Source of the DNA: Sphaerochaetaceae bacterium
GTDB taxonomy: Bacteria > Spirochaetota > Spirochaetia > Sphaerochaetales > Sphaerochaetaceae
Length of the DNA stretch: 64,000 nucleotides
Assembly: GCA_028532765.1 (NCBI GenBank)
Contig: JAQQAR010000015.1
Span: 62,001 to 126,000 of the forward strand
Direction: 5' to 3'
The notes under the pieces: model-generated
Databases searched by the model: none
Seen by the model: the letters and a program-made list of their open reading frames with translations, nothing else
What the model was told of the DNA's origin: nothing
In this document: piece after piece, positions 11,325 through 32,921 of the stretch
Position numbering within the stretch: the first letter of the stretch is position 1
How the letters are laid out: the number at the start of each line of letters is the position of its first letter
Made by a program: the position numbers and the translations under genes

Positions 11325-11340
11325 TGCAACCATTCGCAAC
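11325..11340. promoter_or_regulatory. 16-bp direct-repeat element, site 1
   Basis: TGCAACCATTCGCAAC: two copies of YGCAAC ten bases apart. It begins at the predicted transcript start and ends exactly where the AAAGGAG ribosome site (11341-11347) of the importer begins, so a bound protein would block transcription or translation start. The same element occurs at 15977, 21588 and 32906. Confidence 0.6.
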
Positions 11341-11357
11341 AAAGGAGACCATAATTT

Positions 11358-12461
11358 ATGAAAGTGAGAACCTTAGCCTTACTACTCTGCATGATCCCAG
11401 CTTTGCTCTTTGCACAAGGGGCGGCAGAACAAGCAATACAGGAGAGTGACTACTACCAGGCAGTTGATGCAAATGGGAGAACACTCAAATTACAGGAAAA
11501 GCCATCAAAGGTTCTGATTGCAGGAAAAGCGGGTAATATGCCAGCAAATGCCTTATTTCTTTTCCCTGAAGTGACTGAGATGGAGCTTACGCTTCCCAAG
11601 ACTGACCAGGGATTAGGAGACTTCTTCTCATTCATCAGGCCCTCGTTGGATGACAATCCACGTATCAGCCAGGTAGCCAGTGTGGAAGAGATTGCCAGTT
11701 ACCAGAGTGAGTTGGTGCTGACCAAGGCAACCCACTTTACCTCAATTGCACAAAAGCTTGACCAACTTGGCGTACCCAATTTCACGATGAACCTTGAATC
11801 CTACGAGGATTGGAAGAGAGAGGTAGGTGAGCTTGGCAAGCTACTGAAGAACAATACAAGAGCTGCAGAAATACTTAATCTCTACGAAGAGCGGCTTGAT
11901 CCTATCAGGGAGACAGCCTCCTCAATCGATGCAAAGGACAAGAGACGTGTACTCCTCCTCCAGGCAAACACTGCCGACAACACCTACTCCTACAAGATTG
12001 CCCCGGATGAGTGGATGCAGACATGGATGGTCGAGACCGTTGGTGCCGAACCAGTATGGAAAGGTGCCAACAAGGCAGCAAACGGCTGGTCTACGGTAAG
12101 TTTCGAACAGATTGCTGCTTGGGATCCTGATATCATTATCGTCGTAAGCTACCGTACACCGACTGTCCAGTACATTGAGGCAATCTATGATTCAGAGATA
12201 TGGTCAACCCTTAGAGCGGTAGAGAACAGACAGGTAAAGGCAAGTCCCTATGATATGATGAACTATATCCAGCCTGTTGCCTCCTGGATCCTTGGGCTGC
12301 AGTGGCTGGCCGCGGAAGTCTATCCCGAGCGCTATCCTGACCTGAACATGCGAGATGAGGTCACCTCCTTCTACCAGGATTTCTATCATCTCACCGATGA
12401 GAATAAGCTTGGTTTCCTGAGAGACCGCTACAGTAGTTCGGTTGCCATCAACGCACTATGA
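11358..12461 (+). CDS. ABC importer substrate-binding protein (FecB-like)
   Basis: A 367-residue exported binding protein of the iron-complex/cobalamin/molybdate type (PF01497-like). Residues 1-19 form a signal peptide ending LLFAQG; no lipobox Cys is visible. PSKVLIAGKAGNMPANALFL begins the first lobe, a long helix joins the lobes, and AWDPDIIIVVS is the typical second-lobe motif. The ligand is not readable; siderophore-iron is the usual guess, but the shared 16-bp element ties this operon to purine catabolism, so molybdate/tungstate for XdhD is an alternative. The stop overlaps the permease start by 4 bases. Confidence 0.85.
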   Translation: MKVRTLALLLCMIPALLFAQGAAEQAIQESDYYQAVDANGRTLKLQEKPSKVLIAGKAGNMPANALFLFPEVTEMELTLPKTDQGLGDFFSFIRPSLDDNPRISQVASVEEIASYQSELVLTKATHFTSIAQKLDQLGVPNFTMNLESYEDWKREVGELGKLLKNNTRAAEILNLYEERLDPIRETASSIDAKDKRRVLLLQANTADNTYSYKIAPDEWMQTWMVETVGAEPVWKGANKAANGWSTVSFEQIAAWDPDIIIVVSYRTPTVQYIEAIYDSEIWSTLRAVENRQVKASPYDMMNYIQPVASWILGLQWLAAEVYPERYPDLNMRDEVTSFYQDFYHLTDENKLGFLRDRYSSSVAINAL

Positions 12462-13477
12462 ATGCCCCTCAGCGCTATCAGGCAGAGCGTAAACGACGAA
12501 CAGGACTCCTGCTAGGAATGCTGGGAGCAACACTGCTTCTAGCCTTCCTGTTCCTCTTTGCGGGGAGGTATCCCACTGCCGGATTCAGATTCCCAACAGA
12601 CTGGACAACCAATGCCATGACCAGGAGTATCTTCCTGCGCATCCGGCTTCCTCGTATTGTTCTGGCCCTGCTTGCCGGGGCAATGCTCAGTGCAAGCGGA
12701 TTCACGTTCCAGATGCTGTTCTCCAATCCTTTGGTTGAACCTGGTTTCCTGGGTGTAAGCCAAGGGTCGGCCTTTGGGGCAGCATTGATGATTGTCCTGG
12801 GGGTGGGATCAACCCTCTTTGTACAACTAAGCGCTACGTTCTTTGGACTGTTGGCCTTGCTTGCTTCCTACTTGCTTGCAACCCGTTTCAGGTTTGGAGG
12901 GTGGTTGTTGCGGCTGGTGCTTAGTGGAATAGCGGTATCAGCCCTCTTTTCCAGTGCACTAGGTGTGATAAAATTGGTGGCGGAACCTACCAAGGACCTG
13001 CAAGACATTACCTTCTGGATGATGGGCGGGCTCTGGAATGCCTCCTGGGCCCAGATTCTCTCCATCCTATGGGTGGTCATCCTCAGTATGGCCATACTCC
13101 TCGGATATAGATGGAAACTCAATCTGCTTAGTCTCCAGGAGAAGACATCATTCTCTGTGGGAATGAACCCAAAGAGAGATAGGATCATTCTTCTGATAGT
13201 TGCCACGGTAGGGACCACGGTCACCATTTCCATCACCGGTCTGATCGGTTGGGTTGGCTTGATCACCCCTCACCTGGGTCGTAAGTTGTTTGGTTCCGAT
13301 AGTTCCACCAGCCTTCCCGGTTCCATGATCCTGGGATCATTCTTTCTCTTGATCTGCGATACCATCGGGAGAACCGTCCTGGCTACCGAGATCCCCATTG
13401 GATTGCTTACCAGCTTCATTGGGGCCATTATCTTTATGATCATCCTTTCTCTCAAGCACCAGGAGGGCAAAGCATGA
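12458..13477 (+). CDS. FecCD-family ABC permease
   Basis: A 339-residue inner-membrane permease with about ten hydrophobic segments. Family marks include RIRLPRIVLALLAGAMLSAS near residue 65, NPLVEPGFLGVSQGSAFGA, FWMMGGLWNASW and GLITPHLGRKLFGSDSS, the last contacting the ATPase. It forms a homodimer in characterised systems (BtuC, FhuB half, MolB). It is coupled by 4-base overlaps both to the binding protein before it and to the ATPase after it, so all three are one importer. Confidence 0.93.
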   Translation: MNAPQRYQAERKRRTGLLLGMLGATLLLAFLFLFAGRYPTAGFRFPTDWTTNAMTRSIFLRIRLPRIVLALLAGAMLSASGFTFQMLFSNPLVEPGFLGVSQGSAFGAALMIVLGVGSTLFVQLSATFFGLLALLASYLLATRFRFGGWLLRLVLSGIAVSALFSSALGVIKLVAEPTKDLQDITFWMMGGLWNASWAQILSILWVVILSMAILLGYRWKLNLLSLQEKTSFSVGMNPKRDRIILLIVATVGTTVTISITGLIGWVGLITPHLGRKLFGSDSSTSLPGSMILGSFFLLICDTIGRTVLATEIPIGLLTSFIGAIIFMIILSLKHQEGKA

Positions 13478-14229
13478 ATGCTTTGACGGTAAACCATCTG
13501 AGTTTTATCTACCCAAGCGGTACCAAAGCGCTCGATGATGTCTCACTATCAGTAGAAGAAGGACAGAGTGTAGCTATCCTGGGCTCCAATGGAGCAGGTA
13601 AATCAACACTTCTCGATGTACTGTTGGGATGGCAGAAGAGTGCACAGGTATCATTATATGGGAAACCAATCTCCTCTTATGGACGGAAGGAACTTGGCAG
13701 GACATTGGCCTTGGTTCCCCAATTTGAACAATACAACTTCTCTTTTTCTCTAATAGATTACGTGCTGTTTGGGCGTTCCCCCTACCTTTCAGGGCTGGGA
13801 ACACCAAGTGAAGAGGATGCAGAGATAGCCTATCAGGCACTGTATGATGTGGGTTTGTCTGACTATGCAGAGAGGCATATCACTACATTGAGCGGAGGAG
13901 AACATCAGTTGTTGCTACTTGCAAGGGCCATTGCTCAACAGAGTTCCATGCTCTTGCTCGATGAACCTACCAGTGCATTGGACCCTGCCAACCGGAAACG
14001 GGTTCTTACCATCCTGAAACAGCTGCATGCGAAGGGAAAAACCCTTCTGTTTACCACCCATGACGCAAACCTTGCATACGAGCTTGCAAGCCACGTGGCC
14101 ATGGTGAAGAAGGGATCCCTGCTCTGCTATGGACTAAAAGAAGAGGTGGTCAACACAGCCATGCTGACCACCCTCTATGATACCGAACTAACCGTTGCCC
14201 AAGTCGGTACAAAAACGCTTATTTATTGA
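13474..14229 (+). CDS. ABC importer ATP-binding protein
   Basis: A 251-residue ATPase powering the importer. Walker A is GSNGAGKST (about residues 36-44), the Q-loop is in LALVPQFEQYNFSF, the signature is LSGGEHQLLLLARA and Walker B is MLLLDEPTSALDPAN, followed by TTHDANLA with the switch His. The signature has His where most have Gln or Glu (LSGGEHQ). It ends by overlapping the convergent ade gene by 11 bases. Confidence 0.94.
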   Translation: MNALTVNHLSFIYPSGTKALDDVSLSVEEGQSVAILGSNGAGKSTLLDVLLGWQKSAQVSLYGKPISSYGRKELGRTLALVPQFEQYNFSFSLIDYVLFGRSPYLSGLGTPSEEDAEIAYQALYDVGLSDYAERHITTLSGGEHQLLLLARAIAQQSSMLLLDEPTSALDPANRKRVLTILKQLHAKGKTLLFTTHDANLAYELASHVAMVKKGSLLCYGLKEEVVNTAMLTTLYDTELTVAQVGTKTLIY

Positions 14230-15964
14230 GCTCCAGAGGGACAAAGCTGAAACTTCTTACATCAAACAACCCCATATCGGTGAGCTTATAGGCAGGGATA
14301 ACCGGTAAGGACATGAAACAGAGTGTCATGAAGGGATCGATCTCCTTGCCGATATGCAGTGATTCCTGCGCAATATGATGAAGGTTGTCCAGCTGCTCAG
14401 CGATAACTGAGCCTGCCTCATAGCTCATCAAACCAGCAACGTTCTGTGCAAAGGAAGCCAGTATTTTCTTCTGTTTCACAATCACCATACCACCACCAAT
14501 GGAGATCAAGTGCTCTACAGCCATGGCCATATCCTCGTCATCATCCCCTGCTACAATGATGTTGTGTGAGTCATGGGCAACGGATGTAGCCATTGCCCCA
14601 CCCTGCAAGCCATACCCACGCAAGAGCGCAACAGCCACATTTCCTGTTCCTGTGTGGCGCTCAACCACTGCAAGCTTGATGATATCCTGACTCTTGTCAT
14701 GGACCCATTCGCCATTTTCCACCTTAACGGTAGCCTCTCCTGCTCCAGTGACCACCCCGCCTGGGATGATATCAATAACCCGAACAAGGGATCTGGAAAG
14801 AGGCAGACGGAGACGATCGACAGAGAAATCCTTGACATGCATCATCCCGGAGACTCTCTCATCATGCCTTGCCTTTGCAGCCTTGCAGATAACCCCATCT
14901 TCAGCTACCAACGTTCCTGCTACATACACCTGATGCATGGAGAACTCTTTCAGGTCATTGCAAAGCAGGAAATCCGCACGCTTACCAGGTGCAATCGCAC
15001 CCCGGTCTGTTAGATGATAACAATCTGTGCTATTTACGGTGGCCATACAGATTGCCTCGATTGGATCAAGTCCATCCTGTACTGCAATGCGTACATTGTT
15101 GTTGATATGCCCATCGGTGAGAATGCTTTTTGGTTGCCTGTCATCCGTACAAAAAATACAGCGTCTGCTGTTTTTTTCCGTCACTCCCCCCAGGAGCATC
15201 AAGACATTTTTACATGCCGACCCTTCACGAAGCATGACATACATGCCACGTCGGACACGGTCACGCAGTTCTTGCTCATTCTCACACTCATGGTCGGTAA
15301 GGATCCCTGTACTTGCATAGGCATCAAGCTCTGCCCCGCCGATCGCTGGACTATGGCCATCTGTAACCTTATGTATGCGTTTCGCCTCCATGATCTTGTC
15401 CAGGACCAAATCTGTCCCGGCTACAACGCCAGGAAAGTCCATCATTTCACCCAAGCCGAGAACTCTCTCATGTTTCAAGGCTTCCTTGATATCCTTTGCT
15501 TCCAATACAGCTCCACTATGCTCAAAGGTAGTAGCAGGTACACAGGAAGGCACCATAAAGAAAGCTTGCAACGCTGTCTCTTTAGATGCCTCAAGCATAT
15601 AGGACAAACCATCGAGGCCACATACATTGCAGATTTCATGGGGGTCTGCGATTACTGTGGTCGTTCCACAGGGAACCACAAGATTGGAAAACTCTTCTGG
15701 AGTGGCATGGCTGGACTCAATATGCACATGACCGTCAATAAATCCAGGCACAAGATATCGTCCCCCACCATCAACCACCGTTTCTGCCTCTCCCTGTCCA
15801 CACTCAGCAAAACCAGCTATATATCCGGACTGGACCAAAAGGTCAGCCTCAAACCACTCCTTGTTATATACATCCAATATATGGGCATTCGTAATGCACA
15901 AGTCAGCTTTTTGCCTTCTTGCTGCAGTTTCTATCACTTCCTGCAGACTTTTCTTCGTAACCAT
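14219..15964 (-). CDS. ade: Adenine deaminase
   Basis: Hydrolyses adenine to hypoxanthine and ammonia. The 581-residue amidohydrolase has the metal motif PGFIDGHVHIESSH (about residue 70), IADPHEICNV, DGHSPAIGG, and the C-terminal AVAHDSHNIIVAGDDDEDM typical of bacterial Ade. The ATG at 15964 is preferred over one 54 bases upstream because AAGGAGC lies just ahead of it. It is divergent from the azgA purine permease (288 bases between starts), and a 16-bp direct-repeat element sits directly upstream of its ribosome site. Its product would feed the purine-degrading island further right. Confidence 0.95.
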   Translation of the reverse strand: MVTKKSLQEVIETAARRQKADLCITNAHILDVYNKEWFEADLLVQSGYIAGFAECGQGEAETVVDGGGRYLVPGFIDGHVHIESSHATPEEFSNLVVPCGTTTVIADPHEICNVCGLDGLSYMLEASKETALQAFFMVPSCVPATTFEHSGAVLEAKDIKEALKHERVLGLGEMMDFPGVVAGTDLVLDKIMEAKRIHKVTDGHSPAIGGAELDAYASTGILTDHECENEQELRDRVRRGMYVMLREGSACKNVLMLLGGVTEKNSRRCIFCTDDRQPKSILTDGHINNNVRIAVQDGLDPIEAICMATVNSTDCYHLTDRGAIAPGKRADFLLCNDLKEFSMHQVYVAGTLVAEDGVICKAAKARHDERVSGMMHVKDFSVDRLRLPLSRSLVRVIDIIPGGVVTGAGEATVKVENGEWVHDKSQDIIKLAVVERHTGTGNVAVALLRGYGLQGGAMATSVAHDSHNIIVAGDDDEDMAMAVEHLISIGGGMVIVKQKKILASFAQNVAGLMSYEAGSVIAEQLDNLHHIAQESLHIGKEIDPFMTLCFMSLPVIPAYKLTDMGLFDVRSFSFVPLELNK

Positions 15965-15976: not shown

Positions 15977-15992
15977 TGCAACATTTTGCAAC
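15977..15992. promoter_or_regulatory. 16-bp direct-repeat element, site 2
   Basis: TGCAACATTTTGCAAC, i.e. GTTGCAAAATGTTGCA toward ade. It lies between the predicted ade transcript start (about 15997) and the ribosome site, the same placement as at the importer promoter, which suits a repressor. Confidence 0.6.
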
Positions 15993-16003: not shown

Positions 16004-16031
16004 AGTGTACCACTTCACGATAATTGTTCAA
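16004..16031 (-). promoter_or_regulatory. ade: Probable ade promoter
   Basis: On the minus strand TTGAAC (16031-16026) and TACACT (16009-16004) are 16 bases apart, a good sigma-70-type match, about 40 bases before the ade ATG. Confidence 0.55.
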
Positions 16032-21587: not shown

Positions 21588-21603
21588 GTTGCAGTTTGTT
21601 GCA
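21588..21603. promoter_or_regulatory. 16-bp direct-repeat element, site 3
   Basis: GTTGCAGTTTGTTGCA on the plus strand (TGCAACAAACTGCAAC toward ygeW). It lies in the 108-base gap after the xdhD stop and just before the terminator-like hairpin, so it may control ygeW separately. Confidence 0.55.
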
Positions 21604-21611
21604 AGATTCCG

Positions 21612-24491
21612 TTAAATCTTGCCAAGCTCCTTCAAGATCTTCTCAGGTGAGAACGGCCAACTGCGCATCCAAACTCCTACAGCATCGTGTATGGCGATGG
21701 CGAGAGCTGGAGCTGCTCCGTTGGTTGCGATCTCACTGATAGATTTGGCTCCATAGGGGCCTACCTCATCATTGATATCGATCAGGACCGCCTTGAAGTC
21801 CTCTGGCTGTTCATCAACCATGGGGACTCCATACTCACTCAGTTTTGCATTGATACAGACACCATTCTCATCGAGGAGCATCTGCTCATAGAGCGAATGC
21901 CCGACAGATTTCAGGGCAGCACCATACATCTGACAGAGTGCCAATTCCGGATTGATCGGGGTACCGGCATCCTGCAGGGCATAGTACTTCTGTACCTTTA
22001 CCTGGCCAGTTCTGACGTTGACCGCGACCTGCACAAAGTGAGCACCGTAAGGGATGGAGTTGTGGTTCGTGGTAAAGGAACCTTTTCCCATCACCTGACC
22101 ACGACCTGTACCGGTAAGTGCATCATGACTGAGCTTTGCGTAATCAAGTGTCTTGCCACTCTTGGTACTGTACACCTCACCAGGAGAGCGAAGGATCAAA
22201 TCCTCTGCTTTCTCTCCCATCTGGTAGGCTGCCTCATCAAGCAGATTCTTCTTCAGGTCCTGTGCAGCCTTGTAGCTTGCACCACCACTGAAATAGGTCC
22301 CACTGGAAGCATAGGCACCCGTGTCAAACGTACAGCTGTCGGTATCACCACTGGTAACGGTCACCCTGTCCAGAGGCACACAGAAGGCTTCACTGATCAT
22401 CTTAGCGCTGATGGTATCCAACCCGGTACCCAAATCGGCGCCGCCACTGAATATCTGGAATGTTCCATCGGTCAGCAGTTTAGCCCATGCATTGGAGTGG
22501 TCGAGGCCGGGCAACCCGCTTCCCTGCTGGATCATGGCAAAACCCTTGCCGATTCTCCAGTCGGGGTCCTTGGATTCAACTTTCTTGCCCCACTCGATCA
22601 TCTTTGCACCCTGGGTAAGGGCCTGTTCCAAACCACATGAACCAACGGGCACCACATTTCCTTCACGGCCTTCGCCGAGGCCCTTGAGAATCTCAAGCAT
22701 GTAGCCTGGTTCAACCTTGTTCTTCATGGCCATGTCGTAGTAATCGATTCCCAGCTTTTCTGCAAGCTCCGCCATACAGGTCATCAGTGAGTAGGTACCC
22801 TTAGGGGCTCCATAGCCCTGATAGGCTCCTGTAGGTGGAATGTTTGTGTAATAGGTAATTACATCAAACTTCATGTTGTCGCACTTGAGCAAAGGCAAGG
22901 TCTTGCTGCATGCATTCATCGGGACCGTAAGACAGTGGTTGCCGTATGGTCCGGTATTTGCCCTTACATCCATGTAGACTGCGGTAATGGTGCCGTCTTT
23001 CTTTCCGCCCATCTTGACGGTCATCCGCATCGGATGGCGGGTGGAGTTTGCGATAAACTCTTCCTCACGGGTATTGCGGTAGTAGATTGGTTTTCCGGTG
23101 ATCCAAGTGGCATATCCTACCAGATCCTCGACCAAAATATCCTGCTTGCTGCCATATCCACCGCCAACACGCTCCTTGATGATGCGAATCTTGTTCTCAG
23201 GAATCTGACAGACCCAAGAGACAATTCTTCTCACATGGTAGGGAACCTGGGTGGAGGCATTGATAACCAATCTTCCACCATCAATCCTGGCATAGGCCAG
23301 GTGTGGCTCAAGGGGAGTACACTGGATCTGACTGGTCTGGTAGGTCCTTTCGACCACAGCATCAGCTTCCTCAAATCCCTTTTCCACATCACCAATCTGC
23401 CCATGGGCTGCTGAGGCAATATTTCTTCTGATATCACCATGAAGCGGGAACTGGTAGACAACCTTTCCATCCCTGGGGTCGGCATCCTTGTTGTACTCCT
23501 CCAAATTCTCGGGAGCACCACTGCGATACTCTACCACCCCGTTATGAACACGAGGGGCTCCTTCTTCCATCGCTTCCTCAACGGTGAATACTGGCTTGAG
23601 TACCTCGTACTCCACCTTTATCGCAGATCGAGCAGCAACTGCCTGTTCATACGTTTCTGCAACGATTGCTGCTACACGGTCACCCACATGCCTAACCTTC
23701 CTGTTCAGCAATCTGCGATCGTGTGGGCTGGGTTCTGGATTCCCCTGCCCAGCCTGCATATAGAATACATCAGGACAGTTCTCATGGGTGATGATAGTGA
23801 CCACGCCTTCCATCGCCAGGGCTTTCTTGGTATCGATCTTCTTGATGTAAGCATGGGCGTATGGGCTGCGAAGGATCACCATGGAGTGATAACCCGGTAA
23901 AACCCTGTCCTCAACAAAGCTGGCTTCGCCTGCAACCAGTTGCGGTCCATCGACCTTTCCCTTTGGCTTTCCAACATAGGTCAGCTCATCTCTAAAGGAG
24001 GGAGAAATTTCGCTCTTGTATGCACCATCCTTCATTCTTTCCAGAGCCAACTTCACTGCCAGATAGTAGTGTTCATAGCCTGCATCGCGGATAAAGATAC
24101 CACTAAGTACCTGATTGATTTGTTCCTTGGTAGGATTGGTTTCATGTTCAAGCAACCAAGTCAGGAGCAACGCTGCAGCAGGTGCATTGTAAGCACTCTG
24201 TACGACGCCTGCATCGATCATGGCCTGCTGGATGACATTCAGACTTCGACTGGTACCCATCGATTCAGCGGTCTTGATCTCAGCACCATCAGCCTGGAGT
24301 GCCAACATCAGATTGGCATACACAGGAACATCATTGAAAATAACGGTATCACTGCCTGCAAAGCCTTCCTTATCATCACTATCACGTACGCTGGTATACC
24401 CAAGGCGAACGAGCATTTCACGCAAGCTTTCTGACTGCTTGCAACTTACTGTATGTTTCTTACCGTTAACGGTACAGACAATTTTGTTCAT
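21612..24491 (-). CDS. xdhD: Molybdenum hydroxylase XdhD
   Basis: A 959-residue xanthine-dehydrogenase-family enzyme, proposed to hydroxylate purine or an 8-oxo/2-oxopurine. Residues 1-165 keep the two-domain [2Fe-2S] fold, but ligand cysteines are gone: residues 38-48 read SDDKEGFAGSD where relatives have CGxGxCGxC, 98-103 read QSAYNAP-like sequence and 131-138 read GIFIRDAG for GNLCRCTG. The Mo-binding part (about 180-959) is intact, with GGGYGSKQD, GGADLGTGLD and the catalytic Glu near 920 in GAKSISE. E. coli XdhD shows the same loss. AAAGGAGG precedes the ATG, which overlaps the ygfM stop (ATGA). Confidence 0.93.
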   Translation of the reverse strand: MNKIVCTVNGKKHTVSCKQSESLREMLVRLGYTSVRDSDDKEGFAGSDTVIFNDVPVYANLMLALQADGAEIKTAESMGTSRSLNVIQQAMIDAGVVQSAYNAPAAALLLTWLLEHETNPTKEQINQVLSGIFIRDAGYEHYYLAVKLALERMKDGAYKSEISPSFRDELTYVGKPKGKVDGPQLVAGEASFVEDRVLPGYHSMVILRSPYAHAYIKKIDTKKALAMEGVVTIITHENCPDVFYMQAGQGNPEPSPHDRRLLNRKVRHVGDRVAAIVAETYEQAVAARSAIKVEYEVLKPVFTVEEAMEEGAPRVHNGVVEYRSGAPENLEEYNKDADPRDGKVVYQFPLHGDIRRNIASAAHGQIGDVEKGFEEADAVVERTYQTSQIQCTPLEPHLAYARIDGGRLVINASTQVPYHVRRIVSWVCQIPENKIRIIKERVGGGYGSKQDILVEDLVGYATWITGKPIYYRNTREEEFIANSTRHPMRMTVKMGGKKDGTITAVYMDVRANTGPYGNHCLTVPMNACSKTLPLLKCDNMKFDVITYYTNIPPTGAYQGYGAPKGTYSLMTCMAELAEKLGIDYYDMAMKNKVEPGYMLEILKGLGEGREGNVVPVGSCGLEQALTQGAKMIEWGKKVESKDPDWRIGKGFAMIQQGSGLPGLDHSNAWAKLLTDGTFQIFSGGADLGTGLDTISAKMISEAFCVPLDRVTVTSGDTDSCTFDTGAYASSGTYFSGGASYKAAQDLKKNLLDEAAYQMGEKAEDLILRSPGEVYSTKSGKTLDYAKLSHDALTGTGRGQVMGKGSFTTNHNSIPYGAHFVQVAVNVRTGQVKVQKYYALQDAGTPINPELALCQMYGAALKSVGHSLYEQMLLDENGVCINAKLSEYGVPMVDEQPEDFKAVLIDINDEVGPYGAKSISEIATNGAAPALAIAIHDAVGVWMRSWPFSPEKILKELGKI

Positions 24492-25321
24492 TGTGCACCT
24501 CCTTTGAGAAATGCAGAGAAGAGTTGCCCCACCCCTTCACTGGCTATATAGCGCTTGTAATCGGAGCTGCCAGTCATATCGTCCACGACCTCAATGTCAT
24601 GCCGCACAGCAAGCTGTACATCCTCTCTTGTGGTCAACTCACCGTTCTCGATAGAATTTTCCACCTTTTCCAATCGTTGGACTCCTTTTCCGTATACAGC
24701 AACAAAGACCCGTACGTGGTCTATGACCTGCTCACTGTCCTTTGTTGCACTGAATCCAACGGTTACCGCAGCACGATTCTGGCTGCTCATTGCATACCGC
24801 AAGGTTCCCACATACCGGTCATCCTTGGAAAGGCTGACAGCCAACAACAAGGTACCTGCAAACTGCTTATGATAAGCATGGTATTCTCGGATGGGGATAT
24901 TGTCCTCACTGTATACTCCCTTCTCGGTCAGATTGGCCGTAAGAAGCCGAGCACGGCTTGCAAGCAATGCTGGAGCAAGATAGGAGTGATCACTCATCAG
25001 TGCAAGGTTGCCTCCAATGGTGGCCATATTACGCTTCGTGAAGGAACCACAGAAATGAGCAGCATCCTTGAGCCATGAAGGGATCAATGGTGATTCGATC
25101 AGCTGCTGCAGCGTCACCATGCTACCAATCTTGATGGTGGAACCTTCATCTGTGATGGTATCCAAACCAAGCTTGGAGAGGCTGATGGCAGTCTGGCCCT
25201 CAACGGTTGAATGAAGACGGTTGATCTCCGTCCCCCCTGCATAAAACACACTCTTGGTGTTTGAACGCTTCTTGTTCAGAGCGTCTTCAGTAGTATTCGC
25301 TATGAGATATTCCTGTATCAT
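24488..25321 (-). CDS. ygfM: FAD-binding subunit YgfM
   Basis: A 277-residue FAD-binding subunit of the CO-dehydrogenase/xanthine-dehydrogenase medium-chain family, the expected partner of XdhD. AGGTEINRL (about residue 30) and NMATIGGNLALMSDHSYLAP (about residue 95) are the two FAD contacts (family forms AGGTD and xTIGGNLA). Normally electrons reach it from the Mo centre through two [2Fe-2S] clusters, which XdhD lacks here. Its ATG overlaps the deaminase stop and its stop overlaps the xdhD start, so deaminase-ygfM-xdhD are translated as a coupled set. Confidence 0.92.
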   Translation of the reverse strand: MIQEYLIANTTEDALNKKRSNTKSVFYAGGTEINRLHSTVEGQTAISLSKLGLDTITDEGSTIKIGSMVTLQQLIESPLIPSWLKDAAHFCGSFTKRNMATIGGNLALMSDHSYLAPALLASRARLLTANLTEKGVYSEDNIPIREYHAYHKQFAGTLLLAVSLSKDDRYVGTLRYAMSSQNRAAVTVGFSATKDSEQVIDHVRVFVAVYGKGVQRLEKVENSIENGELTTREDVQLAVRHDIEVVDDMTGSSDYKRYIASEGVGQLFSAFLKGGAQ

Positions 25322-26706
25322 ACAGCCTCCTCTTTGGCAGCTTGACCCATCATACGCTTGCTGATGGCATTTGCCTTGTCTGCAAGTTCCTGCTCGTCAT
25401 ATCCGACCAGCTGCCCGTGATCGACTACAACCTTTCCGTTTATGATTGTATAGTCAGTGTTGTGATTGGTGCCGCAGAAAAGCAAGCTTGCAACCGGATC
25501 ACTTTGACTTCCCGCATAGGGTAATTTGGAAACATCAAAGATTGCCAGATCGGCAGCCCACCCTTCTTCCAGGCGGCCAACGTTCGAGAAATTAAGCGCT
25601 TTCGCACCGTTTTCTGTTGCCATGGTAAATGCCTCATTGGCACTCAGTGCATCAGAACCATATTTCACCCGTTGCAGAAGCATTGCCTGACGTACCTCAG
25701 CAAGCATATCCGAGCTGTCATTGCTGGCACTTCCATCTACGGCAACCGCTACATTGATACCCATCGGCAACATCTCGTTGACCCGGCAGATACCACTACC
25801 GAGGCGCATATTCGAGGACGGGCAATGGGCAATATGGGAACCTGTCTCTGCAAGGATTTTCAACTCTTCATCATTGAAGTGGATTCCATGTGCATAAAAG
25901 ACATCATCCCCGATAAGGTTACACTCCTGCATAAGAGCAACAGGACGCATCCCATACATCTCCTGGCAGAAATCAGCTTCGTCATAGGTCTCACAGAGGT
26001 GGGTATGTAATCGCACCCCATACTTCCTTGCAAGTTCAGCGGTCTTTGTCATCAAATCCTTGGTGACACTGAAGGGACTACATGGAGCGAGGGCTATCTT
26101 GTGCATTGCATCCGGGGCACTGTCATGGTAGGTCTTGATGCATCGCTCACTGTCAGCGAGAATCTCATCCTCAGTCTGTACAACGCTGTCGGGTGGAAGC
26201 CCTCCGTCCTTCTTGCTCAAACTCATCGAGCCTCTCGTGGGACTGAAGCGCATTCCCAGCGTGTCTGCAGCCTCAAATTGAAGGCCCATCAGATCACCCT
26301 TGAATGAGCGTGGATAGAGGTAGTGGTGGTCAGTGGTAAGGGTACAACCGGTCTTCATCAGCTCAGCCATTGCAAGCATTGATGAATAGTAGACTGCTTC
26401 CTCATCCACATATTTCCAAACCTCATAGAGGAATTTCAACCAATCGAAGAGCTTTGCATTCTGCACAGCAGGATGATTTCTGGTTAATGTCTGGTAGAAG
26501 TGATGGTGCGTGTTTACCAAACCCGGGATGACCACATGGTTTGAGCAGTCGATGGTACGACCCTTTGCGGGAGCAGCCAATCCACCCCCAGGAGCAATCT
26601 TGGCGACCTTGTTGTTTTCGATCAACAAATCAGCGCCCCAATATTTCTTTCCATCAAATGTGGGTTGTAGACAGTAGATGTTCTTCAAGAGAAGCGAGGA
26701 ACTCAT
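25318..26706 (-). CDS. 8-oxoguanine deaminase-like amidohydrolase
   Basis: A 462-residue amidohydrolase of the SsnA/AtzC deaminase group. Metal and catalytic residues are visible: NTHHHFYQTLTRN (about residue 67), HLCETYDEADFC, YAHGIHF and AVDGSASND. LAPCSPFSV and AHCPSSNMRLGSGI are patterns of 8-oxoguanine deaminases, so conversion of 8-oxoguanine to urate is a reasonable guess; guanine or another aminopurine is possible. The ATG at 26706 is chosen because GAAGGAG precedes it. It opens a translationally coupled set with ygfM and xdhD and lies 310 bases downstream of ygeY. Confidence 0.82.
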   Translation of the reverse strand: MSSSLLLKNIYCLQPTFDGKKYWGADLLIENNKVAKIAPGGGLAAPAKGRTIDCSNHVVIPGLVNTHHHFYQTLTRNHPAVQNAKLFDWLKFLYEVWKYVDEEAVYYSSMLAMAELMKTGCTLTTDHHYLYPRSFKGDLMGLQFEAADTLGMRFSPTRGSMSLSKKDGGLPPDSVVQTEDEILADSERCIKTYHDSAPDAMHKIALAPCSPFSVTKDLMTKTAELARKYGVRLHTHLCETYDEADFCQEMYGMRPVALMQECNLIGDDVFYAHGIHFNDEELKILAETGSHIAHCPSSNMRLGSGICRVNEMLPMGINVAVAVDGSASNDSSDMLAEVRQAMLLQRVKYGSDALSANEAFTMATENGAKALNFSNVGRLEEGWAADLAIFDVSKLPYAGSQSDPVASLLFCGTNHNTDYTIINGKVVVDHGQLVGYDEQELADKANAISKRMMGQAAKEEAV

Positions 26707-27016
26707 GCCTGTATATCTCCTTCTTCCTGCAAGGACACGACACATAGACGTCGGTGCTACACTTGCAATACTTTATGAGGACGGCATGCGGGTAGTTCCG
26801 CAAGGAAGGAGTGGAGAAGGAAGGGGGCAACTCCACAACCTTGGTTCTTTCTATATACCCTGCAGGCAGAGCCCCTTTTGCACCTGCCGGGCTAGTTCCT
26901 GTATTCCACCATTATCTTATGAGATAAACAATGAAACACCATAAGCTCCAAACAGCCACAAGGCGTCAATCCCTGTGGCTGCAGTATACCATATGTAGCG
27001 AGTGCTAATCTACGTA
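26707..27016 (-). other. 310-base non-coding region before deaminase gene
   Basis: No gene is visible. On the minus strand it contains, in order, a hairpin CAGCCACA/TGTGGCTG followed by TTTGG (26981-26953) that may partly stop ygeY transcripts, a short TTATCT/AGATAA hairpin, a GGCAGG/CCTGC stem with a purine-rich loop near 26870, and the deaminase ribosome site. I recognise no known riboswitch; a promoter or structured leader for deaminase-ygfM-xdhD is likely. Confidence 0.5.
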
Positions 27017-28231
27017 CTACTTCTCCAAGGAATAGGGAAGCATTGCATAGAATGCAGCACAGATCTCAAGGTCATCCACACGGTTGATTTCGTTCGGTGC
27101 GTGAGCCTGTGACTCATCGCCAGGGCCAAAACCAATAGCAGGAATCTTATGACGACCAGTGGTAGCAACCAAGTTGGTGGAGAAGGTCCACTTGTCAACA
27201 ACAGGCTTCTTTCCAAAGAGAGCCTCATGCCCGGCAACACCAGCTTCTACCAGTGGGTGATCAGCGTCGATCTTCCAGGTGGGGAAGTACAGCTCTTGGG
27301 AGTACTCCTTCTTGGTCCAACCAATCTTCTCATAGTTGGGCATCTCGACAACGATTGACTCTGGATCATCACCGGTTGCCTTGCTGATGTACTCACGAAC
27401 CTGCGAGATTGCAAGGTCTGCATCCTCACCCCAGGTAAGACGGCGGTCAAGGTAGAGCATTGCATAGTCTGCAACAGCACACTGGCTCGGTCCCTTTACA
27501 TCCATCTGGCTGACGGTGATGGTACCTTTTCCAAGGAAGTTCTCTGCATCCGGCTTGAGGTCCTTGTTCAATTGCTCGATTGCAAGAGCTGCCTTTGCAG
27601 CCTTGTAAGCAGCACTTACGCCACGCTCTGGAGCACTACCGTGACAGGAAATTCCCCTGAGGATTACCCTGATCTCCATGCGTCCGCGGTGTCCACGATA
27701 GAGGCGGCAGGTTGTAGGCTCAGTGGAAACAACGAGGTCGGGTCTGAAGTTCTCTTCCTCGATGAGGTACTTCCAGCACATACCATCACAGTCTTCTTCC
27801 ATAACGGTGAAGGTGAAATAAGCGGTATATTCACCACTGTAGCCGAGCTCCTTCAGGATCCTACCGGCAGTGATCATGGAAGCTGCACCACCCTTCTGGT
27901 CACTGGAACCGCGTCCCCAGACCTTTCCGTCCTTGATCTCACCACTGAAAGGATCGAAATCCCAGTTCTTCAGGTTTCCAACCTCAACAGTATCGATATG
28001 GGCATCGAAGGCAATCTTCTTGGGACCATTGCCGACGCGGCCGATTACCGAGCCCAATCCATCGATATACACTTCATCAAAGCCAGCTTCTTCACAAAGG
28101 GTTACGATGAGACGACAAACGTCCTCTTCCTGGGAGCTATAGCTCTTGGTCTGCACCATCTTTGAGAGATTCAATGCCGTGTAGTCACGATACTCGGCAG
28201 CCTTTGCCCTAATTTGTTCTTGAATTGTCAT
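27017..28231 (-). CDS. ygeY: M20-family hydrolase YgeY
   Basis: A 404-residue metallopeptidase-fold amidohydrolase (M20) of the YgeY group linked to selenium/Mo-dependent purine degradation. Zinc ligands and catalytic residues are seen in IAFDAHIDTVEVG (His, Asp), GRGSSDQKGGAASM (Asp), VMEEDCDGMCW (catalytic Glu pair), VVSTEPT and the C-terminal HAPNEINRVDDLE (His). A central dimerisation domain contains HGSAPERGVSAAYKA. It likely cleaves an acyl- or ureido-amino acid formed after purine ring opening. AGAGGTAAAG precedes the ATG. It sits 52 bases after ssnA in the same operon. Confidence 0.9.
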   Translation of the reverse strand: MTIQEQIRAKAAEYRDYTALNLSKMVQTKSYSSQEEDVCRLIVTLCEEAGFDEVYIDGLGSVIGRVGNGPKKIAFDAHIDTVEVGNLKNWDFDPFSGEIKDGKVWGRGSSDQKGGAASMITAGRILKELGYSGEYTAYFTFTVMEEDCDGMCWKYLIEEENFRPDLVVSTEPTTCRLYRGHRGRMEIRVILRGISCHGSAPERGVSAAYKAAKAALAIEQLNKDLKPDAENFLGKGTITVSQMDVKGPSQCAVADYAMLYLDRRLTWGEDADLAISQVREYISKATGDDPESIVVEMPNYEKIGWTKKEYSQELYFPTWKIDADHPLVEAGVAGHEALFGKKPVVDKWTFSTNLVATTGRHKIPAIGFGPGDESQAHAPNEINRVDDLEICAAFYAMLPYSLEK

Positions 28232-28283
28232 GTTACTTTACCTCTTTCGTTCTCTATTCTCTTCTTCGTCGTAATCGAACCGG

Positions 28284-29606
28284 TTACGGAGCGATTGTAT
28301 TTACTGTATCCCAAACGCGCTTAGCTACTTTTGCTGCCTCGTCATAGATCTTCTGTACATCAAGGCCTGGGAACTGATGGTTTTCCATCACCAGCTTTCC
28401 ATTAATGATGACACTTTCCACACAGTTGCTGCTCATGCCCCATACAAAATGGGTTGCAGCATTGTCTGCTACCAGAGGGGTTGGTGAATGGTAGTCACAG
28501 ATGGTCAAATCAGCCTTATAGCCTGCAGCAACCTTACCGTACTTCCCGTCAAAATACTTCTCAACCAACTGGTTTCCACGACCCATGGCAGTCACAAAAT
28601 CTGCGGGCCACCAGGAACCACCCTGATCCTTGTGCTTGAAGAACGCAATCTTGAGCTCTTCAAACATATTTCCACCACAGCCATCGGTTCCGATGACCAA
28701 ATTATCAACCTTCTGGATCTGCTTGAAGTAACCAACATTGTTGTTCATGTTGCTGCGTCCATTGTGTGCAAGGAACGTACCATGAGCGTTGATCTTTTCC
28801 ACCTCAGCCTCACTGAGCCATAGCCCATGAACCAAGAGAGAGTTATCAGTCAAGAGTCCAAATTTCTCCAATCGGTCAACGATATCCAGGTGGTACTTAT
28901 GGTGGCTGTGCACCACATCATACTTGTCCTCTGCAACATGGAGATGAAGTCCGGCACCGGTCTCTGCCATCGCCTCTCCCATAAGCTTCAATCCAGCATC
29001 AGGGATGGTGAACGGTGCATGTCCCCCAATCATTCCTCTAACCAGAGAACTGCTCTTGGCGGCCATGGCAAAACGAAGGTTTTCCTCGACGCCTGCTTCA
29101 ACCTCTTTCATTCCACCATTTCTATCGGTGACTTCATAGCAGGTAGCTCCACGCACCCCAACTTCTTCCATTCCCTTGGCAATAGTATCCAAGGATCCTG
29201 CAATATATGAGGGGCTTGCATGGTGGTCGATACAGGTGGTGGTACCACTAGCGATTGCGTCGATCGAGCTGATCAGGGAACTGTAGTAACAAGCTTCCTC
29301 ATCAAGTGCACGGTCGATACGCCACCACCACTCCTTCAGAATCTGAATGAAGTCGGTCTGTGGACCTGCAGAGGCAAGCATGCCTCTGGAGAGTCCTGAG
29401 TAGTAGTGGTGATGGGAACAGACATTCCCGGGAATGACCGTCTTGCCTCTTCCATCAATAACCTTGTCTGCATGTATAGTCTCTGATGCACCCTTGCCTA
29501 CCTTGGTGATGACATCATCGACGATGACGATGTCAACACCTTCCTGCACCTCAAAAGGCGGCTGGGTCTGCATGATCCGGGTTTGTTTAATTACCGTTGT
29601 AGCCAC
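28284..29606 (-). CDS. ssnA: Putative aminohydrolase SsnA
   Basis: A 440-residue amidohydrolase matching the SsnA group found next to ygfK in purine-degrading gene sets. Metal ligands are visible in SHHHYYSGLSRG (about residue 65), GLHLHVAEDKYD, LLVHGLWLS and NVGYFKQ...IGTDGCGGNM. Compared with the paralogue at 25318 it is a separate subgroup, so the island has two distinct deaminase/amidohydrolase steps. It starts with GTG at 29606, with AGGAGG 8 bases ahead, 10 bases after the ygfK stop. Confidence 0.9.
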   Translation of the reverse strand: MATTVIKQTRIMQTQPPFEVQEGVDIVIVDDVITKVGKGASETIHADKVIDGRGKTVIPGNVCSHHHYYSGLSRGMLASAGPQTDFIQILKEWWWRIDRALDEEACYYSSLISSIDAIASGTTTCIDHHASPSYIAGSLDTIAKGMEEVGVRGATCYEVTDRNGGMKEVEAGVEENLRFAMAAKSSSLVRGMIGGHAPFTIPDAGLKLMGEAMAETGAGLHLHVAEDKYDVVHSHHKYHLDIVDRLEKFGLLTDNSLLVHGLWLSEAEVEKINAHGTFLAHNGRSNMNNNVGYFKQIQKVDNLVIGTDGCGGNMFEELKIAFFKHKDQGGSWWPADFVTAMGRGNQLVEKYFDGKYGKVAAGYKADLTICDYHSPTPLVADNAATHFVWGMSSNCVESVIINGKLVMENHQFPGLDVQKIYDEAAKVAKRVWDTVNTIAP

Positions 29607-29616: not shown

Positions 29617-32600
29617 TTACGCTTCTACATATCCAAGCAGGTAGCTGTATGAGGTGTATACCTCTTCGATCAAGGCGGCAACCTCATCAGTAATGCCTTC
29701 CTCTTCCCCTACCAGGATACCGTCTGCGTCCATCTCGCACTCGTAGGTTTTCCCATCGAGGCGAACCAGGATATCCTCACCTTCAACGAAGAATCCACTG
29801 TTCTCTGAGTTCTCAAAATCATCCTTTCGGCTGAAGAGTGTGAACTTCTTGCGATAGGGACCGCCATCGTAGGGACAGAACGTTTCACAGTTGCCACACT
29901 CGTTGCAGTATGCATCGAGGTGGAGAATCTGGAATGGGTCTGCAAACAACCCAAGATTCCTTACATCAATGGCAACGTTTGCGCGGTTCGGACATACATC
30001 CACGCACTTATTGCAGAGATAGGAACATTCCATGCAGCGGGCAGCCTCAGTTGCTGCAAATTCCTTATCGCCGAACTCCTTCGAAGAGAGAATTTTGCTC
30101 TTCTTGTCAGTTACGTCTGCAAAGAACTCATTCTCATCATTTTCGAGCTGCACTCTCTCTTCGTCGCTCATCTCTTCTTCTTCAAATGCTTCATCATCGT
30201 GGTCATGGTCACAATGCTCATCGTGCACATGCTCGCTCTCTTCCTCTTCAGGACCAAGCACCTTGTCGATGGCGGCTTCAACTGCCGCTCTAGCACTAGC
30301 AATACACCTTACCACAGTAGAAGGACCACTCTGTGCATCACCAATGACGTATACATCTGATACTTCTGACTCCTTGGTCTCCTCGTCTGCCTTTGCCCAA
30401 CCCTTCTCGTTGACAGGCACTCCGTACCAAGTAAGCTTCTCTGTATCAGCATGTTCACCAATTGCAGTAATCATGGTGTCTGCTTCAATGGTGAAGGTCT
30501 CTTCGGTAGCAACTGGTCTTCGTCTTCCGCTGGCATCCATTTCACCGAGCTCCATCTTTCGGACGGTGAGCATATTGCCATCGAAGCGTTCAGGATTTGC
30601 AAGGAAGATGAACTCAACATTCTCTTCCTGTGCCATACCATACTCTTCATGGTCGGCCGGCATCTCCTTTTCGGTTCTTCGGTAGATTACTGAAACCTTC
30701 TCAACACCCTTGATCCGGGTAGCGGCACGTGCGCTATCCATTGCAGTATTTCCACCACCGACAACCACAACATGCTTGCCAAGGGAAAGGGTTGATGGAT
30801 CTTTCCTGAATGCGGAGAGGAAGGAGAGAGAGGGTCTTACCCTGCTCCGGTCCCCCTGCAAGGGGATATCATTGTCTACTTCGCTTCCGATTGCGTAGAA
30901 GATACGGGAGTAACCCTGGGCACGTAGTGCTTCTACGGTCATTTTCTCTGCATCTACTCCATAATTGAACTGTACGCCATGAGCCTTGATGAATTCGACA
31001 TCACTTTCAATTGCTTCCACAGGAAGGCGGAATCCAGGGATGACATGGCGAACCACACCACCTGCACTCTCTTCCCTTTCGAAGACAACGGTATCGAAAC
31101 CTGCTCTCGCAAGGAAATATGCTGCAGAAAGTCCGGCAGGACCTGCCCCAACAACTGCTGCCTTGATTTCAGCTTTATCAGTCGGGCCTTCCCATAGCTG
31201 CTTATACTCTTCAAATCCGTTCTCTACTGCAATACGCTTCATATCACGGATACGAACTGCTCCCTCATAATCCATGCGGGTACAGTGTAGCTGACACTGG
31301 TGGTCACAGATGTGACCGGTGATGGCGGGAAGTGCGTTCTTGTCATAGATGACTGCCAAGGCTTCCCCATAGCGTCCCTGACCAACCAGCTGGACATACT
31401 CAGGTACGTCCTGATGGATCGGACAAGCAGTTTGACAAGGCGCAACATAGCAATCAAAGAGGGGTAGCTTCTCCCCAATCTTCACGGTATCAGTTCCCCT
31501 GAAGTCTTTTTCAGCTACGGCATACTTACCCGCTCGTGCATCCTCTGAGAGCTTTTCGAGTTTCTTGACATCAATGCCATCCATCTTCCAGGCATCACTC
31601 TCTTCAAGAATTTCCACAAGCTGTTTCATGCGGGTGTAGCCACCTGGCTTGAGCATATCGGTTGCCAGGGTAATTGGCCTGATACCACTCTCAAACAGAG
31701 CCTTGATCGTAAAGGCATTGGCACCACCACTGTAGCTGATGGGAAGCTTGCCGTTAAATTCCTTGCTGAGCTTAAGTCCCACAGTTGTGGAGATAGGAAG
31801 CAAGGTACGACCTGACATGTACATCTCACCACCGGGGAGTACTCCCTGGTCGTTTACTGATCCAAGGGTGTTGGTCAGTTTTACACCAAAACCCCTGCCC
31901 TCTTTCTTTGCGAGGTCAACCAGGCGATGCAACATGGCAATTGCATCAGGGTACTGCAGGTCGTGCTCAAAGCTTTCCTTGCTGAGGGTAAGATAATCAA
32001 ACCCGAGATCATCAAGGATTTTTCGAACTGTATCAAATCCAAGCAAGGTTGGATTGAGCTTTACAAAGGTGTCTACCTTCTTCTCTGTCAGCATATAGCT
32101 GCAGATTGCTTCAATTTCTTTTGGAGGACATCCATGCATGGTACTGAGCGTGGTCGATGGGCTGATATTCCAGCTGATCTTCTCAGTGATGCCTTTTACC
32201 TTCTTCTCGAGCCCTTCCCAAGGAGTGCCTTCGAACAAACCCTCTTCGATCAGTGCTTCCAGCTCCTGCAAGTACTCTGCAAAGCGTTCATCTTTGCGTG
32301 CGTCGATCATGGAGTCTATGAATTTTTGCATCTTCTCTGTCTTGATGCCTTCCAGGTTGTAGCCAACAGACATATTAAAGATAAAGGAAGGCTTCTCGAA
32401 CTTACCTTTCTGCATCACTGCTTCCAGCAGATGTAGGATAATCCAAGCTTTTGCATACTCGTCCCATGCTTTGGGAAGGGTAAACTCACTGGACCATTCG
32501 ACGTTGTATCCTTCATCCCGTGCATCAATACAGGGTTTCTCAATCTCCAAGGTATCAAGCACCTGGACTGTCTTCAACTCCATGAATCGGCCACCCACAA

Positions 32601-32820
32601 GATAACTTGCGATGATATTCTGGGCCAACTGGGTGTGGGGGCCTGCAGCGGGTCCGCAGGGTGTGGCACAACTCTGGGAGAATACGTTCAGGCTGTGCTT
32701 GCCGCTCTCATGATAAAATTGTTCTTCGGCAATACCGAATATGGTATGGTGATTTCTGTACTCACCAACGATACGGCTAATAAGTTCCGTGAAGGGAACT
32801 GGGCGCATAATGTCTCCCAT
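29617..32820 (-). CDS. ygfK: YgfK iron-sulfur flavoprotein
   Basis: A 1067-residue multi-domain oxidoreductase, annotated elsewhere as putative selenate reductase subunit but linked to anaerobic urate/purine breakdown. Domains: a dihydroorotate-dehydrogenase-like barrel (about 1-430), a Cys-rich Fe-S segment (CYVAPCQTACPIHQDVPEYV), an FAD/NAD(P) domain (VVGAGPAGLSAAYFLA, VVVVGGGNTAMDSA) and a C-terminal two-cluster ferredoxin (CMECSYLCNKCVDVCPNR, CNECGNCETFCPYDGG). Between the last two lies an extra His/Asp/Glu-rich stretch (about 856-900, with HVHDEHCDHDHDD) that I do not recall in E. coli YgfK. AAGGAG precedes the ATG. First gene of the leftward purine operon. Confidence 0.92.
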   Translation of the reverse strand: MGDIMRPVPFTELISRIVGEYRNHHTIFGIAEEQFYHESGKHSLNVFSQSCATPCGPAAGPHTQLAQNIIASYLVGGRFMELKTVQVLDTLEIEKPCIDARDEGYNVEWSSEFTLPKAWDEYAKAWIILHLLEAVMQKGKFEKPSFIFNMSVGYNLEGIKTEKMQKFIDSMIDARKDERFAEYLQELEALIEEGLFEGTPWEGLEKKVKGITEKISWNISPSTTLSTMHGCPPKEIEAICSYMLTEKKVDTFVKLNPTLLGFDTVRKILDDLGFDYLTLSKESFEHDLQYPDAIAMLHRLVDLAKKEGRGFGVKLTNTLGSVNDQGVLPGGEMYMSGRTLLPISTTVGLKLSKEFNGKLPISYSGGANAFTIKALFESGIRPITLATDMLKPGGYTRMKQLVEILEESDAWKMDGIDVKKLEKLSEDARAGKYAVAEKDFRGTDTVKIGEKLPLFDCYVAPCQTACPIHQDVPEYVQLVGQGRYGEALAVIYDKNALPAITGHICDHQCQLHCTRMDYEGAVRIRDMKRIAVENGFEEYKQLWEGPTDKAEIKAAVVGAGPAGLSAAYFLARAGFDTVVFEREESAGGVVRHVIPGFRLPVEAIESDVEFIKAHGVQFNYGVDAEKMTVEALRAQGYSRIFYAIGSEVDNDIPLQGDRSRVRPSLSFLSAFRKDPSTLSLGKHVVVVGGGNTAMDSARAATRIKGVEKVSVIYRRTEKEMPADHEEYGMAQEENVEFIFLANPERFDGNMLTVRKMELGEMDASGRRRPVATEETFTIEADTMITAIGEHADTEKLTWYGVPVNEKGWAKADEETKESEVSDVYVIGDAQSGPSTVVRCIASARAAVEAAIDKVLGPEEEESEHVHDEHCDHDHDDEAFEEEEMSDEERVQLENDENEFFADVTDKKSKILSSKEFGDKEFAATEAARCMECSYLCNKCVDVCPNRANVAIDVRNLGLFADPFQILHLDAYCNECGNCETFCPYDGGPYRKKFTLFSRKDDFENSENSGFFVEGEDILVRLDGKTYECEMDADGILVGEEEGITDEVAALIEEVYTSYSYLLGYVEA

Positions 32821-32870
32821 TACTCACTCCTTCGAAAGGTGTCGCCGGGTTCACTACCCGACCCTTTCTC

Positions 32871-32898
32871 ATTCTAATGCAGATTGAAGAGAAGTCAA
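32871..32898 (-). promoter_or_regulatory. ygfK: ygfK operon promoter
   Basis: Minus-strand TTGACT (32898-32893) and TAGAAT (32876-32871) with 16-base spacing; predicted start about 32864, some 44 bases before the ATG. Confidence 0.7.
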
Positions 32899-32905
32899 TA
32901 TTTTT

Positions 32906-32921
32906 TGCAACATTTCGCAAC
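32906..32921. promoter_or_regulatory. 16-bp direct-repeat element, site 4
   Basis: TGCAACATTTCGCAAC. It lies just upstream of the ygfK -35 box, centred about 50 bases before the predicted transcript start, a placement more typical of an activator. An imperfect further copy (CAACAAACATTTC) follows on its right. Confidence 0.6.

Follow-up and report, generated by a model that had tools for sequence, protein, structure and literature searches.

A probable tandem-repeat operator at reductive purine-degradation genes of Sphaerochaetaceae and a predicted WYL/WCX-type protein as its candidate regulator

Transcription factors of the WYL type constitute a large bacterial family whose characterised members, according to the accessible sections of the reports, serve DNA damage responses, stress or phage defence (PMC12340889, PMC10693628, PMC11804915, PMC9122588, PMC9122601). 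DriD, PafBC and SiwR combine an N-terminal helix-turn-helix (HTH), an Sm-like WYL-type barrel and a C-terminal WCX domain, an architecture predicted for the candidate discussed here; the WCX-type members described in these sections have roles in DNA damage or stress and bind single-stranded DNA (PMC12340889, PMC10693628). In the same sections, DriD is reported to bind a 20-base-pair (bp) pseudo-palindrome (PMC12340889) and SiwR a 19-bp imperfect palindrome (PMC10693628), and the PafBC heterodimer is said to be asymmetric (PMC11804915). Two further proteins with the WYL fold, BrxR (PMC9122601) and CapW (PMC9122588), are associated in the parts available with inverted repeats or palindromes and phage-defence genes, their repressor site being close to the -10 element and, for BrxR, before its own gene. 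This analysis concerns a 64,000-nucleotide stretch of a Sphaerochaetaceae bacterium (contig JAQQAR010000015.1, positions 62,001 to 126,000; hereafter the window), in which a 16-bp element, TGCAAC-N4-YGCAAC, stands before genes of purine metabolism. The element is likely to serve as operator for a regulon, conserved in Sphaerochaetaceae and part of the other Spirochaetia, that covers the anaerobic (reductive) breakdown of purines and urate together with purine-related uptake, and to be read by a predicted WYL/WCX-type regulator. Unlike the described WYL systems, this one would govern a scattered metabolic regulon through a tandem direct repeat.

Xanthine dehydrogenase, deaminases or purine uptake are controlled in other bacteria by regulators of the PucR (Bacillus), PurR (E. 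coli), XdhR and HucR types, whose protein families differ from that of the WYL-type candidate; none of these types was found among the ten site neighbours scanned. Among the matches listed in mostly non-subscription literature, neither a purine regulon nor this regulator was found for Sphaerochaeta. The reductive uric-acid pathway comprises XdhD, YgfK, SsnA, HyuA, YgeW, the carbamate kinase YqeA, YgeY and YgeX; Spirochaetota belong to its carriers, and the accessible part of the same paper calls it poorly understood how uric-acid genes are regulated in gut bacteria (PMC12507026). For this recently described pathway a candidate regulator can now be named. The combination of a metabolic regulon, a direct-repeat operator of one helical turn and two fixed promoter positions would offer a clean system for studying WYL sensing beyond single-stranded DNA and binding to tandem sites, and the motif could serve to predict spirochaete genes for purine use, including transporters of unassigned substrate.

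The four copies of the element reported in an earlier note on this DNA are all exact at their coordinates (Table 1), three on the forward strand and the one at 21588-21603 on the reverse strand; they are the only exact matches in the window, and 100 dinucleotide shuffles of it gave none. Their non-coding character is accepted, although mechanically called open reading frames (ORFs) overlap two of them: a 599-amino-acid (aa) GTG version of ade and an antisense 349-aa ORF at 15977-15992, and a 94-aa ORF at 32906-32921. The TIGR01178 match begins at residue 21 of the GTG version, and the ATG at 15964, behind AGAAGGAG, is the more likely start of ade. The whole home genome (G000, 3.16 Mb, 93 contigs) holds six exact copies, each preceding a gene, and no copy of the reversed pattern; the two outside the window are at G000:C16:37523 and G000:C86:3696. 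One mismatch adds 30 sites (11 for the control). Leaving out those on G000:C90 and C93, 28 of these were examined, and the 24 that fall within ORFs look like chance matches; from the four outside ORFs, those at the candidate regulator gene and at xdhA were kept as targets and that at deoD was dropped; the fourth lies upstream of pyruvate phosphate dikinase.

Conservation was followed in 60 genomes, the home genome and 59 relatives, 41 of which contain exact sites. In the 25 genomes of the genus, home included, exact sites number 115 and matches to the reversed pattern 7, and since a 5-bp spacing gives only 15 matches in the same genomes (its own control, 8), the 4-bp spacing is specific within the genus. 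The scan of the genome and its relatives that the earlier note had proposed comes out in its favour, the reversed pattern and, within the genus, the 5-bp spacing being rare. As regards ygfK, 36 of the 43 genes assessed (40 above the family cut-off plus three cut pieces) are preceded by a site with at most one mismatch; they come from five families, the home one and the four to which G037, G038, G051 and G059 belong. Of these sites, 33 were placed by script among 38 genes, to which G026, G034 and G037 were added. Before the same 38 genes, at the same tolerance, the reversed pattern occurs once, three permuted patterns never, a 5-bp spacing once and a 3-bp spacing never. The seven ygfK genes without a site are those of G056, G039, G044, G040, G029, G032 and G035. 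Several relatives also have the element in front of ygeW, ade, the importer and carbamate kinase, in line with the orthologue conservation that the earlier note had proposed to look for. Neighbours were examined for 88 sites in relatives' loci, picked to favour unusual sites: 42 fall on genes of the window cluster, on carbamate kinase or on the regulator, and 56 have a homologue of a listed regulon gene nearby, a list drawn partly from the same loci and hence not independent.

The architecture of the operator was read from three mutually related sets of 28, 49 and 87 non-identical sites, aligned on the motif. Position 7 is A in 78-100% of them, and so is position 17, which lies outside the search pattern, in 79-96%; positions 18-19 are A-rich, as are 8-9. 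Because these unsearched flanking bases repeat too, a direct repeat is favoured, as had been proposed, and the best reading of the aligned sequences is a unit YGCAACAWW present twice in the same orientation, with a 10-bp period that would place both units on one face of the helix. The first half-site, given earlier as TGCAAC, has to be widened: position 1 is Y and not T alone (ygfK of G027, G030 and G051 has CGCAAC), and the repeat extends to YGCAACAWW. A palindromic reading, suggested by the self-complementary TGCA, is disfavoured by the flanking bases, as the G that it requires at -1 and 9 is found in only 0-14% and 2-6% of sites. In this the element differs from the palindromic operators of WYL homodimers in the accessible parts of the DriD, SiwR, CapW and BrxR reports.

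The candidate regulator emerged from two genomes of different genera, G030 and G034, in which an exact site precedes the gene for an HTH protein. Its home orthologue, of 322 aa, is encoded outside the window on another contig (G000:C87:140752-141720; L149:4753-5721, reverse strand). The earlier inference of a single regulator not encoded in the window fits this protein, for it carries a site in its own promoter: TGCACC-ATTC-TGCAAC lies 19-34 bp before the ATG, directly after a TATACT -10 element. Among 34 orthologues examined (match with E below 1e-40), that of G025 is cut by a contig end; 27 of the remaining 33 assessable genomes, home included, have a promoter site with at most one mismatch. 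A second set of 80 regulator loci was taken from named genomes, partly the same as the 33. Start and upstream region could be fixed in 60 of these loci, and 46 have such a site within 140 bp; the reversed and four permuted patterns have none in 60 each. Over all 80 loci (902,532 bases) there are 22 exact sites whose halves are spaced by 4 or 5 bp; 21 of these stand at the regulator gene, and the reversed pattern has no match. Twelve genomes of this set, picked for holding the regulator, were searched whole and gave 61 sites and no reversed match. Thirty of the 61 were examined: seven flank the regulator (the same promoters as in the 60-locus count) and 16 flank carbamate kinase (7), ygfK (4), ygeW (3), xanthine permease (1) or a ygeY-like gene (1).

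Two observations on the regulator loci stand apart. In some gut Spirochaetales (L239, L257, L258, L259, L261, L265, L266, L267, L271) the regulator's own site has a 5-bp spacing, hence an 11-bp period; co-variation of spacing with lineage (L257, L259, L265, L266 and others) was considered and dropped, as the whole-searched genomes of this group hold both spacings. At L212, an orthologue 70% identical, with a one-mismatch promoter site, is found in a bin labelled Cloacimonadota, possibly through a binning error or transfer.

In the genome sequences, the regulator and the sites are for the most part found together. At least two YGCAAC-type sites are present in 32 of the 34 genomes with an orthologue versus 7 of the 26 without one. 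With one genome per family outside the home family the figures are 4 of 4 versus 2 of 20 (Fisher p 0.0014); shared ancestry inflates the 60-genome comparison more than this one. Six of the seven ygfK genes without a site belong to genomes without an orthologue, G039 and G040 having only relatives with 36-38% identity. The most telling case is G029, a 97% complete member of the home family that has kept ygfK and lacks both the regulator and exact sites.

As judged from profile matches and the model of an orthologue, the 322-aa protein is probably a WYL-type regulator composed of an HTH, a WYL-like fold and a WCX domain; the assignment to the WYL type rests on the barrel fold together with WCX. 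HTH_11 scores 29.1 bits in the home protein (cut-off 25) and matches all 34 orthologues at E up to 0.01. WCX (PF25583) is matched at the same E in 33 of the 34, scoring 25.7 in L197 from Sphaerochaeta halotolerans (cut-off 23.9) and, slightly under the cut-off, 21.9 in the home protein. A profile search of the PDB placed DriD entries best, with a match to DriD over positions 206-314. The S. halotolerans orthologue was modelled with AlphaFold2 (mean predicted local distance difference test, pLDDT, 65; about 85-91 in the WCX part), and the model shows a barrel at about residues 134-224, mostly at moderate confidence. Structural matches are led by DriD, PafBC, BrxR and CapW, DriD being best in Foldseek and PafBC and DriD first in a second comparison. 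CapW, BrxR, DriD and PafBC reach Z 8.4-11.8, and unrelated Sm/Hfq barrels also about 8; the barrel alone superposes on BrxR/CapW with Z 9.6-11.1 over 83-85 residues and a root-mean-square deviation (rmsd) of 2.8-3.5. R193 and R195 are invariant in the 34 regulator sequences.

With respect to the inferred promoters, the sites fall into two classes. At ygfK and ygeW (class A) the element lies at about -59..-44. The gap from the site to TTGAC is 7 bp in 28, 8 bp in three and 9 bp in one of the 33 ygfK genes with a two-repeat site, and one has no TTGAC in range; the same phase, within a few bp, recurs at 10 of 48 regulator promoters, whose -10 was chosen crudely. Such a fixed phase points to contact with RNA polymerase and hence to activation. 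The remaining sites (class B) lie within or just after the inferred promoter: xdhA -27..-12, carbamate kinase -36..-21, importer and the sugar-type binding protein described below 0..+15, ade +4..+19, regulator +5..+20. These values rest on the second-best-scoring promoter in the case of xdhA and of the sugar-type binding protein, and at carbamate kinase a second promoter comes close in score; with the alternatives the positions would be +41..+56, -8..+7 and -5..+10, respectively. Class B mostly corresponds to a classical repressor position. The geometry of the earlier note, with sites between transcript start and ribosome site at the importer and ade and upstream of the -35 at ygfK, agrees with these positions. 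Its description of the third site as lying between xdhD and ygeW also stands, and has to be completed: this site is 7 bp upstream of the inferred ygeW promoter (TGGACA-17-TATAGT), placed as at ygfK.

According to these data, the regulator would work as follows. Two subunits would probably touch the two YGCAACAWW units, which follow each other in tandem at a distance of one helix turn on the same DNA face. The protein would repress the importer, ade, carbamate kinase, xdhA and its own gene, at which the site is inside the promoter or directly behind it, and at ygfK and ygeW it probably contacts RNA polymerase and activates, repression there being less likely. Because of the content of the regulon and the nucleic-acid sensing of the family, the WYL-like domain may sense a purine-pathway metabolite. 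Taken as a whole, the picture of a WYL regulator recruited from nucleic-acid sensing to a purine small molecule, binding tandem operators as an activator at -59..-44 and a repressor elsewhere, and acting as master switch of anaerobic urate/purine degradation in spirochaetes, is offered tentatively, as slightly less likely than not.

It is important to note that a number of observations weigh against the proposed operator, its reader or its mode of action. All promoters used throughout are predictions from consensus scoring. At positions 0 and 10, where a palindrome requires T, this base occurs in 38-68% and 24-75% of sites, which leaves room for partial symmetry. No assigned regulon neighbour was found for 32 of the 88 sites in relatives' loci, nor any assigned neighbour for 7 of the 30 sites examined in the whole-searched genomes, and the sugar-type binding protein, without evident tie to purines, is an unexplained target. 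In G031, G033, G037, G038 and G051 no site with at most one mismatch precedes the regulator. G032 has an orthologue, yet its ygfK is without a site and the promoter of the regulator holds only a single unit. Conversely, G009, G021, G023, G026 and G035 (all at most 88% complete) have sites and no orthologue was found in them, and G040 and G043 have at least two sites without an orthologue. As for the protein, the Pfam WYL model is not among the matches listed for the home protein and L197, nor is it among the best 25 of 27 families for the orthologues. The structural model is weak, with the HTH part mostly under 50 pLDDT; two-domain superpositions on DriD/PafBC have rmsd 17-19, and Foldseek TM-scores of the WYL hits are 0.19-0.25 by model length.

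Some of these exceptions could be explained if another purine regulator bound the element, the WYL-type gene being merely one member of the regulon: the five genomes with sites and no detected orthologue, the siteless ygfK and regulator of G032, and the six of 33 assessable genomes without a near-exact self-site. We regard this as improbable. The five genomes are incomplete assemblies (68-88%), the 97%-complete G029 has ygfK but neither regulator nor exact sites, and the promoter of the WYL-type gene is kept as a target in most lineages examined (46 of 60). Moreover, the only recognised transcription factors among recurring families of site neighbours (at least two members) are the WYL-type protein and a GntR confined to the genus. 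The latter, a GntR/FCD-family gene divergent from carbamate kinase, adjoins the site in the home genome and at four further genus loci and might itself be the regulator. This is very improbable, however, as it is met at only 5 of 12 carbamate-kinase loci, all in the genus, the other seven being without it among the neighbours within reach of the site. In addition, GntR operators are normally palindromes, and the gene next to it, which we take to encode a TRAP-transporter binding protein, suggests another job. Other regulator genes beside single sites, Rex (L049), Xre-like (L071, by eye, and L087) and another GntR (L085), were set aside, each occurring in one genome only.

More weight must be given to a disagreement about the mode of action. 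The regulator could be a pure repressor which, from -59..-44, blocks an UP element or the C-terminal domain of the RNA polymerase alpha subunit. The -35 of ygfK is near consensus (TTGAC in 32 of 33), so that an activator is not obviously needed, and the remaining home-genome sites are repressor-like. We think this a real possibility, though somewhat improbable, because the position fixed 7-9 bp before the -35 in 32 of 33 ygfK genes, which recurs at ygeW and at 10 of 48 regulator promoters, is typical of contact with RNA polymerase. WYL activators are, besides, described in the accessible parts of the DriD and PafBC reports (PMC12340889, PMC11804915). Hardly credible, finally, is an element that acts in RNA as a leader motif, or a chance or structural repeat. 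Several sites do fall in inferred 5' leaders, but the element occurs in both orientations relative to the gene, for which reason an RNA element is rejected, and at ygfK and ygeW it lies upstream of the inferred promoters; chance is very unlikely given the shuffles and control patterns. A DNA operator read by the WYL/WCX-type protein is thus preferred, and the features to which it would apply in the window are collected in Table 1.

Table 1. Predicted operators, inferred promoters and genes of the window (positions counted from its first letter).
Feature	Position	Strand	Remarks
Operator 1, TGCAACCATTCGCAAC	11325..11340	+	0..+15 from inferred importer-operon start, directly before ribosome site
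Inferred importer-operon promoter	11291..11317	+	-35 TTGCGA 11291-11296; -10 TATAAT 11312-11317; consensus scoring
Importer: substrate-binding protein, FecCD-type permease, ATPase	11358..14229	+	
Operator 2	15977..15992	site +, gene -	+4..+19 of inferred ade transcript
Inferred ade promoter	16004..16031	-	-10 TACACT 16004-16009; 16 bp; -35 TTGAAC 16026-16031
ade, adenine deaminase	14219..15964	-	TIGR01178, 619 bits; start taken as ATG 15964
Operator 3, TGCAACAAACTGCAAC	21588..21603	-	-59..-44 of inferred ygeW promoter
Inferred ygeW promoter	21552..21580	-	-35 TGGACA 21575-21580; 17 bp; -10 TATAGT 21552-21557
ygeW, knotted carbamoyltransferase	20303..21502	-	TIGR03316, 776 bits from residue 31 of longer ORF; likely start ATG 21502, inferred
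Operator 4	32906..32921	site +, ygfK -	-58..-43 of inferred ygfK promoter
Inferred ygfK promoter	32871..32898	-	-35 TTGACT 32893-32898; 16 bp; -10 TAGAAT 32871-32876
ygfK	29617..32820	-	TIGR03315, 1427 bits
Reductive purine-degradation genes between ygfK and ygeW	21612..29606	-	ssnA 28284; ygeY 27017; 8-oxoguanine-deaminase-like 25318; FAD subunit 24488; xdhD 21612

The cluster consists of ygfK, ssnA, ygeY, a gene for an 8-oxoguanine-deaminase-like amidohydrolase, that for a flavin adenine dinucleotide (FAD) subunit, xdhD and ygeW, accompanied by ade, a xanthine/uracil-type permease gene and the FecCD-type importer. The products of ygfK, ssnA, ygeW, xdhD and ygeY score above the NCBIfam cut-offs, as does carbamate kinase. 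The longer ORF of ygeW would begin at 21574, upstream of the inferred -10. The binding protein of the importer (11358-12461) matches HI_1472 (3psa/3psh) and other periplasmic binding proteins, over only part of the protein and hence not decisively; HI_1472 is, we assume, a molybdate-binding protein, which would fit a supply of molybdenum for XdhD. By their predicted products, the genes match the reductive purine/urate pathway as given in the accessible part of its description (PMC12507026).

Beyond the window, carbamate kinase is, on the sites found, the most widespread target: an exact site precedes it in the home genome (G000:C16) and, in all, at 12 loci of three families. An XdhA-type gene (G000:C42), whose best match is XdhA at a score below the model cut-off in the part at hand, has 19 homologues in the genus. 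Of the 16 that could be assessed, 15 are preceded by TACAACNNNNTGCAAC or a similar site with no more than one mismatch; as it is present in 15 of the 16 despite changing central bases, this site is considered to be kept. Targets of single lineages are diaminopropionate ammonia-lyase (ygeX), xanthine permease, an amino-acid carrier and PnrA-type nucleoside-binding proteins; the ygeX-type gene carries a site in two relatives. The case of deoD was rejected: its home copy has a one-mismatch site, but among 27 assessed homologues only 5, all from close relatives, have a sequence within one mismatch of the motif.

The exact site at G000:C86 precedes a gene for an ATP-binding cassette (ABC) binding protein without an NCBIfam match at 1e-20, which we read as sugar-type; the gene upstream is presumably CTP-synthase-like. 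Operator and promoter at this locus (L006, L319; also L101, L107) resemble those of the FecCD importer. At another home locus (L172 1501-1516; G000:C8), TGCAACAAATAGCAAC lies upstream of pyruvate phosphate dikinase, and the identical 16-mer stands before the regulator in G059.

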